37,430 bases of DNA from a virus. The stretch lies in the IMG/VR virus record IMGVR_UViG_3300038701_000808, positions 1-37,430 of that record. One strand, 5' to 3'. This document shows positions 6,573 through 28,088 of the stretch, piece after piece (the stretch's first letter is position 1; each line of letters opens with the position of its first letter). Made by a program: the position numbers and the translations under genes. Below the pieces are notes generated by a model, which was not told the DNA's origin, did not search any database, and saw nothing but the letters and a program-made list of their open reading frames with translations.

Positions 6573-6609
6573 CAGGGGGTGTTGGGTTCTCCATTCCCCT
6601 CACCCCCTG
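6573..6609 (+). other. GC-rich hairpin in head operon
   Basis: CAGGGGGTG at 6573-6581 pairs perfectly with CACCCCCTG at 6601-6609 around a 19-base loop, with further weak pairing outside (GGTT/AACC). No T-run follows, so it is not a typical terminator. It lies between the stop at 6565 and the ribosome site of the next gene and may affect mRNA processing or stability. Confidence 0.6.
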
Positions 6610-6645
6610 ACAACCTATCGAATGGAGATAAAAAATGGAGGTGCT

Positions 6646-22637: not shown

Positions 22638-23027
22638 CTAGAACGGAATCCCGTCATTCGCGGCACTTTCGGTTGTGCCATTTGGCTGTTCGTTTCCGCC
22701 GCCTGGCAGGAAGCGCACGTTAATTGCGTTCACCTCGTAGCTGGCGCCGCTCGTGCCGTCTCTGCGCTCAAACACTTTCGGGCTGCCGGTTTCCTTGTCT
22801 GGATTGAGCCTTCCGATCACCAGCACGGGGCGACCCTTGCTCAGGTATTGATTGCACGCCTCAGCTTGACCACCAAACACAGACACTCGGAACCAGGTTG
22901 TAGTTTCGTTGTCCTTGTACTTCTCTGACGTTGCCAGAGAGAAGGTGGTAACTGGGTTTCCGTTTGACAGAAACCTAAGCACGGGATCTGCGCCAAGCCT
23001 ACCTACCAAAGTTAATTGAGCAAACAT
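22638..23027 (-). CDS. ssb: Single-stranded DNA-binding protein
   Basis: A 129-residue OB-fold SSB. I start it at ATG 23027 (MFAQLTLVGRLGADP) after AAAGGAGATTGT. Family features: VGRLGADP, FSLATSEKYKDNETTTWFRV, a GRLNPDKETG loop, and the acidic tip DGIPF that recruits partner proteins. It protects single-stranded DNA in replication and recombination and may load partners of the DnaB helicase or ERF protein. Confidence 0.9.
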   Translation of the reverse strand: MFAQLTLVGRLGADPVLRFLSNGNPVTTFSLATSEKYKDNETTTWFRVSVFGGQAEACNQYLSKGRPVLVIGRLNPDKETGSPKVFERRDGTSGASYEVNAINVRFLPGGGNEQPNGTTESAANDGIPF

Positions 23028-23037
23028 ACAATCTCCT

Positions 23038-23535
23038 TTATATAACATGTTTCCAAATTTTTTTATTTACAATGAGGCCGATAAGTGTTTTATCAACATC
23101 CAAATCTAGCTTATCAATTATTTCTTGATATGTATAAATACCACATTTGTGAATCTTTCTAATTTCTCTAACCTGATTTGGTGTCAGCTTTGCTCTTATG
23201 TTTTTCACGCCAACTGGGGGATTGTCGTTAAATCCGCCGCGCGCCCTTCCCTTTTCAACCATATCTCTTGTATTGTCTGCCGGAGTCCCCAAAAACAGAT
23301 GGGACGGATTTACACACGATCTGTTGTCGCAACGATGGCACACAAACATTCCGCTTGGTATTTCTCCAACAAACAGTCTAAAAGATGCGCGGTGAGCAGT
23401 TGTCCACTTGCCGTTTAGATAAAACATTCCATACCCATTGCTGTTTTTTCCGGCAGCCCAGCTCCAACAGTCTGATTTTGATTCCTTTCTAACCTTATTA
23501 AAAAACCTTTTGATGTTTTGGCTTTTTGTTTTCAT
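23038..23535 (-). CDS. HNH homing endonuclease with C-terminal DNA-binding region
   Basis: A 165-residue free-standing HNH enzyme. The core shows [14 protein letters not shown], then [23 protein letters not shown] (the H-N-H/Cys zinc part) and a GRARGGFN loop, followed by a [18 protein letters not shown]-like helix. Homing endonucleases nick at intron-less or intron-bearing sites. This gene lies between a structured leader and ssb, and its 5' end is directly downstream of the leader's stem. It may have brought the leader with it. Confidence 0.85.
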
Positions 23536-23547
23536 AATGTTTCCTAA

Positions 23548-23634
23548 TACTAAGTCCCGCCATCCAGATTAGCGACTTGCTTAGAGTAGCTTTGGATAGC
23601 GGGACTTAGTAGATAATCATTTACTACTCTAAGC
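23548..23634 (-). ncRNA. Structured leader element 1 (hairpin with pseudoknot-like loop pairing)
   Basis: A 13-bp perfect stem (23548-23560 with 23599-23611), a 1x1 mismatch and five more pairs (23562-23566 with 23593-23597). Inside its loop, 23579-23589 (GCTTAGAGTAG) is the exact complement of 23624-23634 (CTACTCTAAGC), which lies outside the stem on the other side. This is the base-pairing plan of an H-type pseudoknot or alternative fold. On the minus strand the predicted start site coincides with the beginning of the outer segment, and the HNH gene starts 13 bases beyond the stem. One pair is G-U in the plus RNA and A-C in the minus RNA, so strand is not certain. Confidence 0.6.
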
Positions 23635-23640
23635 ATAATA

Positions 23641-23669
23641 AGTATAACATAAATTGAGACAAATTTCAA
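23641..23669 (-). promoter_or_regulatory. Sigma70-type promoter for leader element 1, HNH and ssb
   Basis: On the minus strand TTGAAA (23664-23669), a 17-base spacer and TATACT (23641-23646). Predicted start is near 23634, the first base of the loop-complementary segment of element 1. The transcript would continue into the HNH and ssb genes. Confidence 0.7.
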
Positions 23670-23722
23670 GCATCACATCTCCTGATTAATGCGAAGGTCA
23701 AGGTATTGGGTCATGACTGGCA

Positions 23723-24439
23723 TTATTTACTCCAGTTCGCTATGGCGTTATGCAGGCGGATGGCCTCATGTTCGCTGCTTGCAACTGGAGAGTAATAACC
23801 ACAATGACCACAAGTAACGGTATACTCCACACCTCTGCCAAGAACACCTCCGCCAAGATCGGTTTTTTCGCAATGACACGGCTTATCACACTCAGGATTA
23901 GGACACGGCGCAATCTCTGGCTGACGCTTGACGATGTCGTAACCCTGTTCGTCAAGATATTTCTTTACAACAACCATTACCAGCCCATTACAATTTTTTA
24001 TCGCGCGCTCTATTTCTGTTATGGCGGTATCTACGTCGTTTTTATAAGGTTCCTCATCCAATTCATCAAGACAAATTGGGATGAAGTAGTCAATGTTATA
24101 GCCAGCACCCCACCAATAATCAAACCACTCCAACGCCCGCCATTCATCAGCGATAGAGCGTCTACCTGTTAGATGTACGACATACACACCGCCCTTATCA
24201 GGCTTATGCTTTGGATATTCCAGGGGCATTACTTCATCCGGCGGATTAGGGATGTCGATGATCCAGTCTACAGCAGGGATTATATAAAATCTGTTTTCGC
24301 TCCACGAACTTGAGCAACGGAACGCTTGCCAATAGTTTTCGTCTTTAGGTTCAACTGCGACAAAATACATTTTTCCGTCGATCAAATTTTCTTTTACCTC
24401 TTCCAATCGTTTTGGCATTAGCTGTCTTTTTGTGTACAT
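23723..24439 (-). CDS. Hypothetical protein with C-terminal Lar/zinc-ribbon-like domain
   Basis: A 238-residue protein. Residues about 1-150 are rich in Trp/Tyr and acidic segments (PDEVMPLEYPKH, EWRALEWFDYWWGAGY). The C-terminal region has CPNPECDKPCHCEK and CGHCGYYSP with a final AIRLHNAIANWSK, the layout of Lar/restriction-alleviation-like zinc ribbons. It follows an HNH gene at three bases' distance. Function unknown; modulation of host nucleases is a family-based guess. Confidence 0.6.
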   Translation of the reverse strand: MYTKRQLMPKRLEEVKENLIDGKMYFVAVEPKDENYWQAFRCSSSWSENRFYIIPAVDWIIDIPNPPDEVMPLEYPKHKPDKGGVYVVHLTGRRSIADEWRALEWFDYWWGAGYNIDYFIPICLDELDEEPYKNDVDTAITEIERAIKNCNGLVMVVVKKYLDEQGYDIVKRQPEIAPCPNPECDKPCHCEKTDLGGGVLGRGVEYTVTCGHCGYYSPVASSEHEAIRLHNAIANWSK

Positions 24440-24442
24440 TTC

Positions 24443-24835
24443 TCACTCCTTTGCCATTGCTGGCGATAATCCGTGTTCATTTTTGTGGCACTTTTTACAC
24501 AGTACAATCAAATCCTCTGGCAGTTCCTCACCCCTACGCTCATAGGTAATGTGATGCACCTGCAACTTTTCGCCAGATCCGCACTTTTCGCAAGCTCCGC
24601 GCGCTCGTTCAATCGCATCTAATCGAGTCCGCTGCCACTCCTCAGTTTTTAGATACAGCTCATAGTCCATATTCTTCAATTCTACCAAACGGGCATGGTC
24701 ATAAATAGCCTTTGCCCTCTGATAAAACGGTTCAATTGTTTTGATTTTTGCGTGCAGTGTAGCCATCGTGTTTTTGGCCTCAATATACGCCTCGTGCAAT
24801 CGTTTTGTTTTATTGCTCATTCCGATTTTTGCCAT
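24443..24835 (-). CDS. HNH nuclease
   Basis: A 130-residue protein with a basic helical N-terminus and an HNH core: ACEKCGSGEKLQVHHITYER near residues 80-100 followed by LIVLCKKCHKNEHG. Small HNH proteins in phages act in packaging, homing or recombination. It lies between the DnaB helicase and the Lar-like gene. Start at 24835 after AAGAGGTGAACA. Confidence 0.8.
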   Translation of the reverse strand: MAKIGMSNKTKRLHEAYIEAKNTMATLHAKIKTIEPFYQRAKAIYDHARLVELKNMDYELYLKTEEWQRTRLDAIERARGACEKCGSGEKLQVHHITYERRGEELPEDLIVLCKKCHKNEHGLSPAMAKE

Positions 24836-24846
24836 TGTTCACCTCT

Positions 24847-26133
24847 TTAATATCTTGGGGCGTTACTGGTATATTCACCAAACGCCGGAAAGCCAGCAAT
24901 CTTGACAAGCTTCAAAGCTCTCGCCCCGTCTGATTCGCGCATCTTATCCCAGATAAGGTTCACGACATTATCTTCTTTTTCGTCTTGAGATAAAATTGCA
25001 ATCGAATCGGCGTCGTAAGATACCTTATGACTACCCGACAAATGCGACATTGTTGGGCTTGATCCGTACCCCTGCTTATTTAGCGACTGTATGACAATTC
25101 CGGCAAGGTCAAGGTCTTTACAAATCCCATGAATTTGGCGGGATAGGTACTCGCTTTTTTCGTTGCGGTCCTTGCCATAACTATCAGCTAGCAGGTCAAG
25201 ATAGTCCAGAATAAACCATTCTACGCCCTGTTGTTGTTTAAGCCTTGACAAATCGGCCCGCAACTGTAAAGTAGTCCAATCCGTAGCGTCTGAGATATAG
25301 ATTGGAAGCGGGTCAAGTTCTTCAACGCCCTTATTCAGCTTCTCCCACTTCTCATTCATGTCAACGCCGGATAGCATGTTGTAAGTCGGTATTTTCGTAA
25401 TTGCCGATAACCGCCGCCTAACCATCGCCTTGCCGGACATTTCAAGGGCATAGACCGCTCCGGCATGCCCATTAGCGGCCACCCCACAACCCAGCTGAAA
25501 GGCCAGCAAGCTCTTACCGGTTCCTGGCTGGCCTGCGATAATAAATTCCTCTCCGGTTTGCAAGCCATAGGTGATTTTATCAAATCCTTTCATGCCGGTT
25601 TCGAGGCCGTGAATTAGCTTTGGGTTTTCGGCTCGCTCAGATATTTCAGAGTATAAATCGGTTAAATATTCTTTCATAGCAACCGCGCCGCCTTTTGGCT
25701 TTGCGGATTGCACCAGGTCGGATACGGCTTTGCTTATAGCGTCACCAATGTTAGCTTGTTCGTTGTACGCCTCTTTAGCCAAGTGTCCAGCGGCCCCAAT
25801 AACGAATCGCCTGACGGCTGTATCTCTGATAATCCGCTCGTAGGTCTCGAAGTTATATGTTTGCGGACATTGGTTCGGCAATCCCATAAGATACGCTGGC
25901 CCACCGACATCGTCGATTTTCCCCTTGCGCTCCATGACCTCTGTGAGTGATACCAAGTCAAGGTCTCGGCTTCCAATGGCTCGCATGGCTCTATAAATTT
26001 CCTGATGTCCAATGTCATAAAACGCTTCTGGCTCAATCGAAACACGATTGATAATTGATGGGTCTATCAGAATTGCGCCAAGTAGAGCGGCCTCCGACTC
26101 CCTCGATTCTGGCATTCGCAAAGGGTCTGTCAT
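24847..26133 (-). CDS. dnaB: DnaB-like replicative helicase
   Basis: A 428-residue replicative helicase. The N-terminal domain (PESRESEAALLGAILIDP) binds primase; the RecA-like motor has Walker A AGQPGTGKS at about residues 200-208 and Walker B WFILDYLDL near 306-314. A LEMSGKAMVRRRLSA segment lies near 230-245. It starts four bases into the end of the replication initiator (ATGA), so the two are coupled. The length is near the usual 440-470. It unwinds DNA at the fork after loading by the initiator. Confidence 0.9.
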   Translation of the reverse strand: MTDPLRMPESRESEAALLGAILIDPSIINRVSIEPEAFYDIGHQEIYRAMRAIGSRDLDLVSLTEVMERKGKIDDVGGPAYLMGLPNQCPQTYNFETYERIIRDTAVRRFVIGAAGHLAKEAYNEQANIGDAISKAVSDLVQSAKPKGGAVAMKEYLTDLYSEISERAENPKLIHGLETGMKGFDKITYGLQTGEEFIIAGQPGTGKSLLAFQLGCGVAANGHAGAVYALEMSGKAMVRRRLSAITKIPTYNMLSGVDMNEKWEKLNKGVEELDPLPIYISDATDWTTLQLRADLSRLKQQQGVEWFILDYLDLLADSYGKDRNEKSEYLSRQIHGICKDLDLAGIVIQSLNKQGYGSSPTMSHLSGSHKVSYDADSIAILSQDEKEDNVVNLIWDKMRESDGARALKLVKIAGFPAFGEYTSNAPRY

Positions 26134-26870
26134 ATCACGATCTCCTCTCCGTCAGGGCCAAGATAAGTCTTTTTAGCGGATTGTTTCGCTTCATTCTCTG
26201 CAATGTTTCCGCGCAGGAAGCTTGTAATGCTCGCTGGCCTGGCAACTGTATATTTTTTCGTTAGTGCCGCTTCTACCGCCTCTTTTATATCGGCTCTCGT
26301 TACCCCAAGATTAATCCACTCTCCAACCTCCTGAATCCATCTCGAATAGTGGGTCAGGCTGTTTGGGATAGGAATTTTCGTAATTTCACAAAAGGAGGCG
26401 ATGTACTCTTGTTCTGTATCTGATTCTGTTCTGTTCTGTTCTGTATCTATTCTCTTCTCTTCTGATTGACTATGCGTAACCGGTTCTGTTACTACATCGT
26501 TACCATTAGTAACGCCTTGCGCCTCATCGTAATATTTATCTTTTATTTCTTGTTCTCTGAGCCTTCTCATGTACTCGGCTTTTTCCATTGGTGCTTGTCG
26601 TTCCTCAAAGTGCGTTACCTTCCAGTTACCATTTTGTTGGCAGACAATACCTTTTTGCTCCAGAGATTCGAGGTCATTGGTAAGGTCAGCGTCTGACACC
26701 CTCAATCTCCAGGCCATATCAACAACTTTTGGCAATGAGCCGTCCTCATTGTTTTCGCCAGCAAGTAAAAACAATTCGATAACGCGGCGATAAAGATGGT
26801 CTGATAGCGTCCCCATTTTGGGATCGTCTAGTATTTCGTGATAAAGTTTTACCCAGTATTTTGATGCCAT
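26130..26870 (-). CDS. Phage replication initiator (DnaD/replisome-organiser type)
   Basis: A 246-residue protein. I start it at ATG 26870 (MASKYWVKLYHEILDDPK) after AAGGAG. The N-terminal domain is the winged-helix of phage replisome organisers (YRRVIELFLLAGENNEDGSLPKV is within it). The middle (about residues 120-155) is a low-complexity Glu/Gln/Thr linker encoded by tandem CAGAA repeats, and the C-terminal domain (THYSRWIQEVGEWINLGV) is the helicase-interaction part. It sits upstream of DnaB with a four-base overlap. It likely opens the origin and loads the helicase. Confidence 0.75.
   Translation of the reverse strand: MASKYWVKLYHEILDDPKMGTLSDHLYRRVIELFLLAGENNEDGSLPKVVDMAWRLRVSDADLTNDLESLEQKGIVCQQNGNWKVTHFEERQAPMEKAEYMRRLREQEIKDKYYDEAQGVTNGNDVVTEPVTHSQSEEKRIDTEQNRTESDTEQEYIASFCEITKIPIPNSLTHYSRWIQEVGEWINLGVTRADIKEAVEAALTKKYTVARPASITSFLRGNIAENEAKQSAKKTYLGPDGEEIVI
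26411..26463 (-). repeat. Candidate replication origin repeats inside initiator gene
   Basis: On the minus strand CAGAA occurs five times, as GATACAGAACAGAACAGAAC followed by AGAATCAGATACAGAAC, plus an adjacent GAAGAGAAGAGAA run. The repeats encode the linker between the two initiator domains, the same place as the lambda O iterons. Origin identity is inference. Confidence 0.45.
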
Positions 26871-26891
26871 ATTGCTCCTTATTAAATAAAG

Positions 26892-26969
26892 CTCCGCTGC
26901 CAAGGCTGGACATTCGGCTAAGAATGACCTTGAACAGCGGAGTTTTATTGTCCAGTTACATTCTTAGCC
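26892..26969 (-). ncRNA. Structured leader element 2 (hairpin with pseudoknot-like loop pairing)
   Basis: An 8-bp stem (26892-26899 with 26935-26942) continues as CAAGG/CCTTG (26901-26905 with 26928-26932). The loop carries CTGGACA and GGCTAAGAATG (26906-26912 and 26916-26926), each exactly complementary to an outside word (TGTCCAG 26949-26955 and CATTCTTAGCC 26959-26969). The plan equals element 1, with an 11-bp loop-tail pairing, but the sequence differs. On the minus strand it begins at the predicted start site and is followed by CTTTATTT, so the stem could also act as a terminator. It precedes the initiator gene. Confidence 0.6.
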
Positions 26970-26975
26970 TCTATT

Positions 26976-27004
26976 ATTTTACTCGCGTTTGCCCTGCGTG
27001 TCAA
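26976..27004 (-). promoter_or_regulatory. Sigma70-type promoter for leader element 2 and replication genes
   Basis: On the minus strand TTGACA (26999-27004), a 17-base spacer and TAAAAT (26976-26981), inside the 3' end of the methyltransferase gene. Predicted start 26969, the first base of element 2. It would drive the initiator and DnaB genes separately from the upstream operon. Confidence 0.75.
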
Positions 27005-28088
27005 GGGATTCTGCATCCATAATGCAGCGTCCGACATACTCCGCAACCTGCGGTACTACGGCGTTTCCGAGGCACTTAAGTCTGTCCACCCGGTTGGGAA
27101 CCCCATTAGCCACTCGACCCACGTCGGGTTCAACTGACCACCAGTCACATCCAAGCTGTTGCATAAGCCGTCTCCCGGTGCGTGCTGTCCCCTTTGCGTC
27201 TGACCTTTCCAGTCGCGCGACCGGGGTGTTGGGTACATTTTTCTCTTTTCTTCCTTCCAAACCTGATCGTTGAGTTGATAGTACGGTGTTGAGCTGTTCA
27301 CCCGTTTTGGGCTGCGATAATCCCTGGCCTGTGGTGTCGGCCACATTTTCACTGCCATTGCAAGAGGCGGAGTTGATACCTTCCCGTCTTTCTTTCGCTT
27401 TATCCATGTATCTGGATTTTCGCTTGTGGTTTTGCCAGCTCTCGGCGTCGGCCAAAATTCCTTGTTCTTCGGCTGAACCTGATCTCTCAGTTTGTAATGC
27501 CCGGATTTGTCCTTGTGCATTTTCATAACGCCCCCCTCCCCGTCTGAGGCTGATGGCGTGCGCCACAACGAAGATTCGATATCTTCTGTGGTTGGCTCCG
27601 AAAGCCGCAGCTGGAATATTGAACGTCCCAACGGTGTAGCCCGCCCATTCCAAGTCAGCAAGAACATCGTCGAGCATGGTAGTAATGATTCCAGGAACGT
27701 TCTCACCCACCACCCATCGGGGTTTGAGTTCTTGTATAATTCGTAGATATTCAGGCCAGAGGTTGCGGTCATCATCCTTGCCTCGTCGCTTCCCGGCGAC
27801 ACTGTGAGGTTGGCAAGGGAATCCTCCGGCAATAAGGTCAACTGGTGCGAGTTCATGTTTTCTCCTTTGTGGTGGCTGGTGGTACTCACCCCATTTAACA
27901 CCTTCCGTTGTGACTGGTGCACCACCACAATCTTTTATATCTCGATATTTTGGAACGCCGGGCCAGTGTTTCTCAAGGACCCGAGTGCAGTAATCATCAA
28001 TCTCCACCTACCAGGCGCATTTCATCCCGGCACGCTCAAAACCGAGATCAATACCACCTATACCCGTAAATAGTGATCCAAATTTCAT
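26979..28088 (-). pseudogene. Cytosine-C5 DNA methyltransferase interrupted by amber codon
   Basis: The full frame of 369 codons starts at ATG 28088 (KFGSLFTGIGGIDLGFE, the SAM-binding motif I) and overlaps the upstream stop (ATGA). Codon 27 (28008-28010) is TAG where most relatives have a glutamine-like residue (CAW*VEID). After it the frame is open to 26979 and holds PCQ (about residue 91-93), ENVPG (129-133), RRYRIF (168) and GNAVVP near 341. A product starting at GTG 28007 would lack motif I and be inactive. It also contains the unrelated gene 27056-27856 in another frame. Confidence 0.8.
27056..27856 (-). CDS. Overlapping gene nested within methyltransferase (PTPxARD-type protein)
   Basis: A 266-codon frame, +1 relative to the methyltransferase, wholly inside it. 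Start ATG 27856 has an excellent AAAGGAG ribosome site six bases upstream. The product shows four [WY]xTPxxxD-like motifs (WRTPSASDG, WPTPRAG, WPTPQARDY, YPTPRSRDW) and a C-terminal GGQLNPTWVEWLMGFP segment. I recall proteins with these motifs in other phages, often unnamed or labelled as methyltransferase. It has no stop codons despite lying in the target-recognition region, which argues that it is a real second product. Function unknown. Confidence 0.75.
   Translation of the reverse strand: MNSHQLTLLPEDSLANLTVSPGSDEARMMTATSGLNIYELYKNSNPDGWWVRTFLESLLPCSTMFLLTWNGRATPLGRSIFQLRLSEPTTEDIESSLWRTPSASDGEGGVMKMHKDKSGHYKLRDQVQPKNKEFWPTPRAGKTTSENPDTWIKRKKDGKVSTPPLAMAVKMWPTPQARDYRSPKRVNSSTPYYQLNDQVWKEEKRKMYPTPRSRDWKGQTQRGQHAPGDGLCNSLDVTGGQLNPTWVEWLMGFPTGWTDLSASETP

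Follow-up and report, generated by a model that had tools for sequence, protein, structure and literature searches.

In the window (the whole 37,430-nt stretch of viral DNA analysed here), the operon encoding a replication initiator and a DnaB-like helicase is headed by a leader whose transcript is predicted to pass between two competing folds, and because relatives keep this design though its letters have changed, the leader is probably an RNA switch that sets the amount of replication protein. The mechanism we favour, with a probability of roughly 45%, is a co-transcriptional two-state switch of the attenuator kind with predicted termination, for which we infer the transcription start, termination and any regulating factor.

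Layout of the leader and its relatives

The element, designated E1, lies on the minus strand at window positions 26969-26885 and consists of three words, a, b and c, whose complements a', b' and c' come after them in unchanged order (Table 1), with 11 pairs in a:a', 7 in b:b' and 8 in c:c'. Stem c is extendable by inner pairs (c2:c2') and by an outer A/U extension (ATAAA at 26948-26944 with TTTAT at 26890-26886), and because of these added pairs E1 is taken to extend to about 26885, spanning the entire leader from the predicted 5' end of the transcript to the Shine-Dalgarno site of the initiator. The order read along the strand (promoter, element, Shine-Dalgarno, ATG) makes E1 a leader between the promoter and the first gene of the predicted transcript, and the product of that gene has matches to families of phage replication initiation and of DnaD-like loaders. 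Within the -10 box of the E1 promoter sits TAA, the stop codon of the methyltransferase open reading frame that lies upstream. Two long minus-strand open reading frames, 26979-28007 and 27056-27928, overlap in different frames; each has matches among DNA methyltransferase families (PF00145/phrog_363 and phrog_1008), which points to possible dual-frame coding. On the opposite strand, stem c also resembles a terminator (window 26885-26948) by virtue of its A-rich 5' flank, GGAGTTTTATT; no converging gene was seen.

Table 1. Features of the initiator leader, its operon and the second copy of the element in the window
Feature	Position	Strand	Sequence or match	Remark
Sigma-70-type promoter	26976..27004	-	TTGACA-N17-TAAAAT	TTGACA 27004-26999, 17 nt, TAAAAT 26981-26976
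Word a	26959..26969	-	GGCTAAGAATG	5' end of predicted transcript; 6-nt gap from -10 box
Word b	26949..26955	-	CTGGACA	Partner b' (pseudoknot); in state I UGGACA pairs with b2
Word c	26935..26942	-	CTCCGCTG	5' arm of terminator-like stem; A-rich outer extension 26944-26948
b2	26931..26936	-	TGTTCA	State I partner of b; overlaps c2 arm CAAGG 26932-26928
Word a'	26916..26926	-	CATTCTTAGCC	11 bp with a; 5' half is d, CATTC, which can pair with d'
d'	26911..26915	-	GAATG	Rivals 3' half of a for a'
Word b'	26906..26912	-	TGTCCAG	7 bp with b
c2'	26901..26905	-	CCTTG	Inner extension of stem c; pairs with CAAGG 26932-26928
Word c' and tract	26884..26899	-	CAGCGGAG 26899-26892, then CTTTATTT 26891-26884	8 bp with c
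Shine-Dalgarno	26875..26880	-	AAGGAG	Read directly from sequence
Replication initiator / DnaD-like helicase loader	26130..26870	-	phrog_3926, phrog_186	246 aa; start ATG 26870
DnaB-like helicase	24847..26133	-		Next operon gene, downstream of initiator
E2 promoter	23669-23641	-	TTGAAA-N17-TATACT	Directly upstream of E2
E2	23548..23635	-		Same design as E1; precedes HNH gene (23038-23535) and SSB (22638-23048)

An earlier note, made from the letters of this DNA, had described paired words of 11 and 7 bases with a stem, the tract CTTTATTT behind that stem on the minus strand, and a promoter that sets the start at the element's first base. All of these are present, the predicted start being the seventh base after the -10 box. 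The likeness that it drew to 23548-23634 also holds, and this second copy is designated E2 (window 23635-23548). The promoters of E1 and E2 are the top two minus-strand promoter-like sites in 23400-27200 (11/12 and 10/12 matches). The promoter-E2-HNH unit (window 23038-23669, minus strand), together with a 238-aa gene at 23723-24439, splits a small HNH gene from the SSB gene; the small HNH gene and SSB are nearly adjacent in the related locus L002, and the unit in the window looks like an inserted cassette with its own leader copy.

DnaB protein scans yielded three near relatives, L002, L003 and L007, with DnaB 78-84% identical. In L002 and L007 the element occurs at the same initiator site, with a similar promoter upstream and a Shine-Dalgarno directly downstream (E3, L002 4163-4256; E4, L007 6862-6945), and in all four copies word a begins 5-7 nt past the -10 box, at the predicted 5' end. 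The element thus heads the initiator in three of the four members of this group (window, L002 and L007); L003 has no such leader upstream of its initiator. By eye, the L003 interval 2820-2940, where the leader is missing, holds the end of an HNH-like gene (NELNNLQILCRKCNRKKGAN). The element was also found in none of 19 distant initiator relatives (L089-L107), and since it is absent from these and from L003, the leader is not essential.

Scans upstream of HNH relatives of the E2 gene found the element in 0 of 45, and a covariance model of the stem region, run over 22 records, had hits in 3, all of them to the four known copies or to their antisense images. A 16-mer seed, CGCTGTTCAAGGTCAT, returned 73 stretches, among which only the L007 record (L051) holds the element; the other 72 were taken as chance 16-mers and set aside. 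Annotated phages include no close relatives by DNA, and their protein hits were not used for comparison (DnaB and HNH below 60% identity; two short hits for the initiator). The sole cellular initiator relative from a genome scan came from a Pelolinea MAG (34% identity; locus L153), at which no element was found; Pelolinea, which we take to belong to the Chloroflexota, is a weak hint at the host group. Among 396 genomes of the class of Pelolinea, the RNA model gave 2 matches of 33-37 nt without the inner loop, taken as chance hairpins; 31 of the 396 have a DnaB match at E <= 1e-60, and a scan of 20 of those DnaB loci, plus L165 and L166, gave just two GC-rich chance hits.

How far the arrangement exceeds chance depends on how it is defined. 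A loose search for two crossing words found 41 crossing helix pairs in the window on both strands, compared with 11-34 (mean 22.6) in 40 shuffles; such crossings are common in shuffled sequence and not very special. A compact three-word search, with thresholds set after E1 and E2 were known (a at least 9, b at least 5 and c at least 8 bp, plus compactness), passed both elements and had 0 hits in 400 Markov shuffles of the window. Applied to 1,321,987 bases, in which several loci duplicate one record, the compact scan gave 66 hits versus 35 in one shuffle, mostly GC-rich noise, so it is informative only at tighter thresholds chosen post hoc. The nested minimum-energy fold of the E1 leader, at -31.3 kcal/mol, has a z of -3.49. 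Another compact crossing set (a 9, b 5 and c 9 bp) stands on the plus strand at window 6573-6628, before a Shine-Dalgarno and an ATG near 6643; about one such arrangement per 38 kb is expected by chance, its first hairpin simply persists on folding, and the near relatives have no match to the proteins on either side.

Competing folds and covariation

Prefix folding, in which nested equilibrium folds of growing transcripts are computed, excluding pseudoknot energies and kinetics, gave the same succession in all four elements. The probability of a:a' is 0.96-1.0 once a' is out and 0.98-1.0 at the end of b', and at full length c:c' replaces a:a' with a probability of 0.96-1.0, so that the early and late hairpins are mutually exclusive (4/4). 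In E3, a:a' outlasts completion of the GC part of c' (0.95 at that point) and gives way only after the U-tract is added. Forced energies for the early (I) and late (II) states were -27.8 and -35.0 kcal/mol in E1, -25.1 and -38.2 in E2, -34.4 and -36.8 in E3, and -31.9 and -36.2 in E4. Some arms are used in both states: in state I the 5' half of a' is bound to a, and in state II to d'; in E1 and E4, b2, the partner of b in state I, overlaps the c2 arm of state II. A switch signature, a strong early hairpin fully replaced later at a fixed 62% cut, is shown by E1 and E4 and not by E2 and E3; it occurs in 20 of 3734 90-mers, a background that includes the elements' own region, and in 8 of 1200 shuffles.

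The late hairpin also has a bearing on the 5' end. In E1 the apical loop of state II consists of the 3' half of a', TTAGCC, which complements GGCTAA, the first 6 nt of the RNA, and the corresponding loops of E2, E3 and E4 are complementary to the first 7, 8 and 6 nt (loop bases matching the 5' end: 6/6, 7/7, 8/9 and 6/6 in E1 to E4). The 5' end can therefore be paired in both states. Behind c', a U-rich run with 6-7 T in 8 follows in E1, E3 and E4 (CUUUAUUU, UUUUUAUU and UUUUGUUA), and E2 has no U-tract after its stem. A terminator scan of the window region, restricted to loops of 3-8, flagged neither E1 nor E2.

These results refine the earlier note's description of a pseudoknot-like leader whose tail-loop pairing might control a terminator. 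Pairing of the 5' tail with the loop of the stem is supported, as is a start at the predicted +1, but prefix folding points to two competing states rather than one static knot; control of a terminator is plausible, with a U-tract behind the stem in the three initiator leaders and none in E2.

Comparison with related phages, which the same note had proposed as a check, indicates that the crossing-word leader is kept by compensatory change in L002 and L007. E1 and E4 align closely; E2 and E3, whose letters are mostly different, retain the word order together with a 5'-terminal GCUNAG and a CCCG/CGGG stem. Across E1-E4, a sample of only four sequences of which two are closely alike, double changes occur at 6 of 11 aligned pairs in a, 6 of 6 in b and 8 of 10 in c, and non-pairing cells number 1/44, 2/24 and 1/40. 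The arms were hand-picked for their pairing, which biases the percentage paired; that choice alone does not account for the number of double changes. For the nested state II, counted by program on an alignment, 10 of 24 pairs show a double change and 87.4% of 95 cells are paired, with a covariation score of 0.472, compared to 0.076-0.138 for slid partners and reached in 0 of 500 shuffles.

Two details bear on the individual helices. The b:b' helix is 7 bp in E1 and E3 (shuffle p 0.0025 and 0.0067) and 5 bp in E2 and E4, where it is weak and suggestive (p 0.05 and 0.10), and because b:b' cannot nest with either hairpin, this helix argues best for a true pseudoknot. E1 and E4 differ jointly at two positions in a, a' and d', with CATTC/GAATG becoming CATCT/AGATG in L007; a and d' both follow the changes in a', which is what pairing of a' with each of them would predict. 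The pairs of a that never vary (2, 3, 4 and 6) fall in the 5' part that is complementary to the state II loop.

Proposed mechanism and rival explanations

In the mechanism that we favour, a' would pair with the 5'-terminal word a as it emerges behind the polymerase, forming hairpin I with b pairing inside. Hairpin I would hold the stem arm c in its loop, and b' could lock this state by pairing with b; state I, being made first, would keep the polymerase going. Once c' emerges, it could invade the exposed c and give hairpin II (c:c' + c2 + d:d'), which in the initiator leaders would present a terminator-like stem and U-tract just before the Shine-Dalgarno site, and in which the 5' end may stay paired through the complementary apical loop. 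The balance between the states, or the time that the polymerase allows for conversion, would then set read-through into the initiator genes. The main weakness of this attenuator reading is E2: without a U-tract there, termination cannot be the effect in all four, and the E2 leader must do something else or be decayed.

The lack of a U-tract in E2 is also what makes protection of the 5' end the leading rival. Here, first nucleotides that are paired in both states would hinder 5'-end-dependent decay and keep early mRNAs alive, and the competing states would be incidental. Such a shield accounts for E2, and it fits both the position of word a behind the -10 box and the complementarity of the first 6-8 nt to the state II loop, each of which is seen in 4/4 elements. 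Precedent exists in E. coli, where 5'-terminal stems stabilise mRNA (Emory 1992 and Bouvet 1992, by their titles in the reference list of PMC3997798). However, a plain 5' hairpin would suffice for this, and c:c', the U-tracts and the conserved b:b' would be left unexplained; we consider the shield unlikely.

Translational autoregulation, by which the initiator, or the phage SSB in the case of E2, would bind the pseudoknot and block the nearby Shine-Dalgarno in the manner of gp32, is distinctly unlikely in our estimation. A pseudoknot-capable RNA does lie immediately 5' of the Shine-Dalgarno before replication genes, E2 heads a unit containing SSB, and the T4 gene 32 leader offers a precedent (PMC535899, in its available part), but the first protein encoded downstream is not the same for E1 and E2, no shared single-stranded motif was seen, and the Shine-Dalgarno is in no conserved pair.

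A more ambitious reading is a new phage leader RNA family in which a, b and c fold simultaneously into a compact three-helix ABCABC structure that captures the 5' terminus in a closed loop, slipknot- or trefoil-like, shielding the 5' end and timing the terminator. By rigid placement of ideal helices, which ignores linker sterics, threading and topology, all four elements accommodate a+b as well as a+c, and E1 and E4 also accommodate a+b+c. When b is placed together with full-length c in E2 and E3, the helices miss at both joints by about 10.6 and 16.6 Å, and a+b+c is admitted there after opening about 4 bp of c. The test is permissive, as two supposedly hard controls produced little or no violation, and it expresses a necessary condition only. 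For two of the four elements, one static knot holding every pair at full length would be sterically doubtful, and because the folds compete in prefix folding and E2 and E3 misfit at full length, the simultaneous ABCABC arrangement was set aside as the main reading. We hold such a family to be improbable; knots in RNA are described as exceptional in PMC11218946.

We regard as a long shot the possibility that the nascent leader binds RNA polymerase and promotes read-through of later terminators in the early operon, like a put RNA. Two similar elements of ~80-90 nt right after replication-region promoters do recall HK022 putL (PMC9378689, as far as its excerpt goes). The putRNA described there is made of two tandem stem-loops, though, and here the pairs cross; in HK022 24000-40751, the best match of the RNA model reached 13.9 bits (E 0.049, shortened matches), and a scan for crossing pairs of the leader kind found 0. 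It is highly improbable that the stem is a plain terminator of the upstream unit that overlaps the next promoter's transcript by accident: the upstream stop codon within the -10 box and the U-tract would suit this, but a:a', b:b' and their double changes would go unexplained, and L002 and L007 have other genes directly upstream. A structure at the DNA level, for example an origin of replication or an array of protein-binding sites folded on single-stranded DNA, is hardly probable at all, since the site does precede the initiator gene but all four copies stand exactly between promoter and Shine-Dalgarno in the sense direction, another gene 3.3 kb away is preceded by a second copy, the GC skew does not switch at E1, and the RNA model scores 83.8 bits in sense versus 36.3 in antisense, though it was built on the sense strand.

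If the two-state switch is correct, this phage group would regulate its replication initiator by a leader RNA that exploits polymerase speed and the first letters of the transcript, with no obvious protein or metabolite involved. It would be a compact and easily tested RNA switch that keeps its 5' end paired whichever state it is in, and a natural system in which to test the extent to which mutually crossing helices can form in one RNA.

Comparison with known systems

Searching Rfam 15 gave no match in the window at the gathering threshold; in the element region the best was Alpha_RBS, at 11.3 bits versus 38 needed (E 1.4). L009 had no Rfam match either, but it is downstream of E3, not E3 itself. 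No description of this leader was found in the open-access literature searched.

The leader resembles transcription attenuators in general in being promoter-proximal, in standing at the start of an operon, and in setting an early hairpin against a later GC-rich stem with a U-tract. It differs in that its early helix encloses the terminator arm, which that of attenuators merely overlaps, in that the loop of its final state complements the 5' end of the RNA, in showing no apparent ligand pocket or leader peptide, and in that one of its four copies has no U-tract.

According to the available part of PMC535899, the T4/RB69 gene 32 leader likewise has a pseudoknot ahead of a phage replication gene, on the 5' side of its Shine-Dalgarno, and its sequence diverges between relatives. 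That knot is of ~28 nt with an unstructured UUAAA tract and is bound by SSB; the pairing plan here differs, and no run of UUAAA/UAAA repeats was seen by eye after c' in E1. In word order, the leader matches the ABCABC 'pseudotrefoil' (genus 1, subclass 1C), which the excerpt of PMC3390330 lists for 51 RNAs of RNA STRAND: a, b and c cross in this order, with the words present in 4/4. In the leader, however, it is whole helices of 5-19 bp that cross, and these are probably not all formed at once at full length.

HK022 putRNA resembles the leader in that early phage promoters are followed by two related cis-acting RNA elements, putL being ~70 nt and just downstream of PL (PMC9378689, available portion). 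In that portion putRNA is given as two tandem stem-loops with a triplex, in contrast with the competing hairpins and crossing partners predicted here. A put RNA is also recognised by the zinc-binding domain of the RNA polymerase beta' subunit. By position and copy number, it is the nearest phage precedent.
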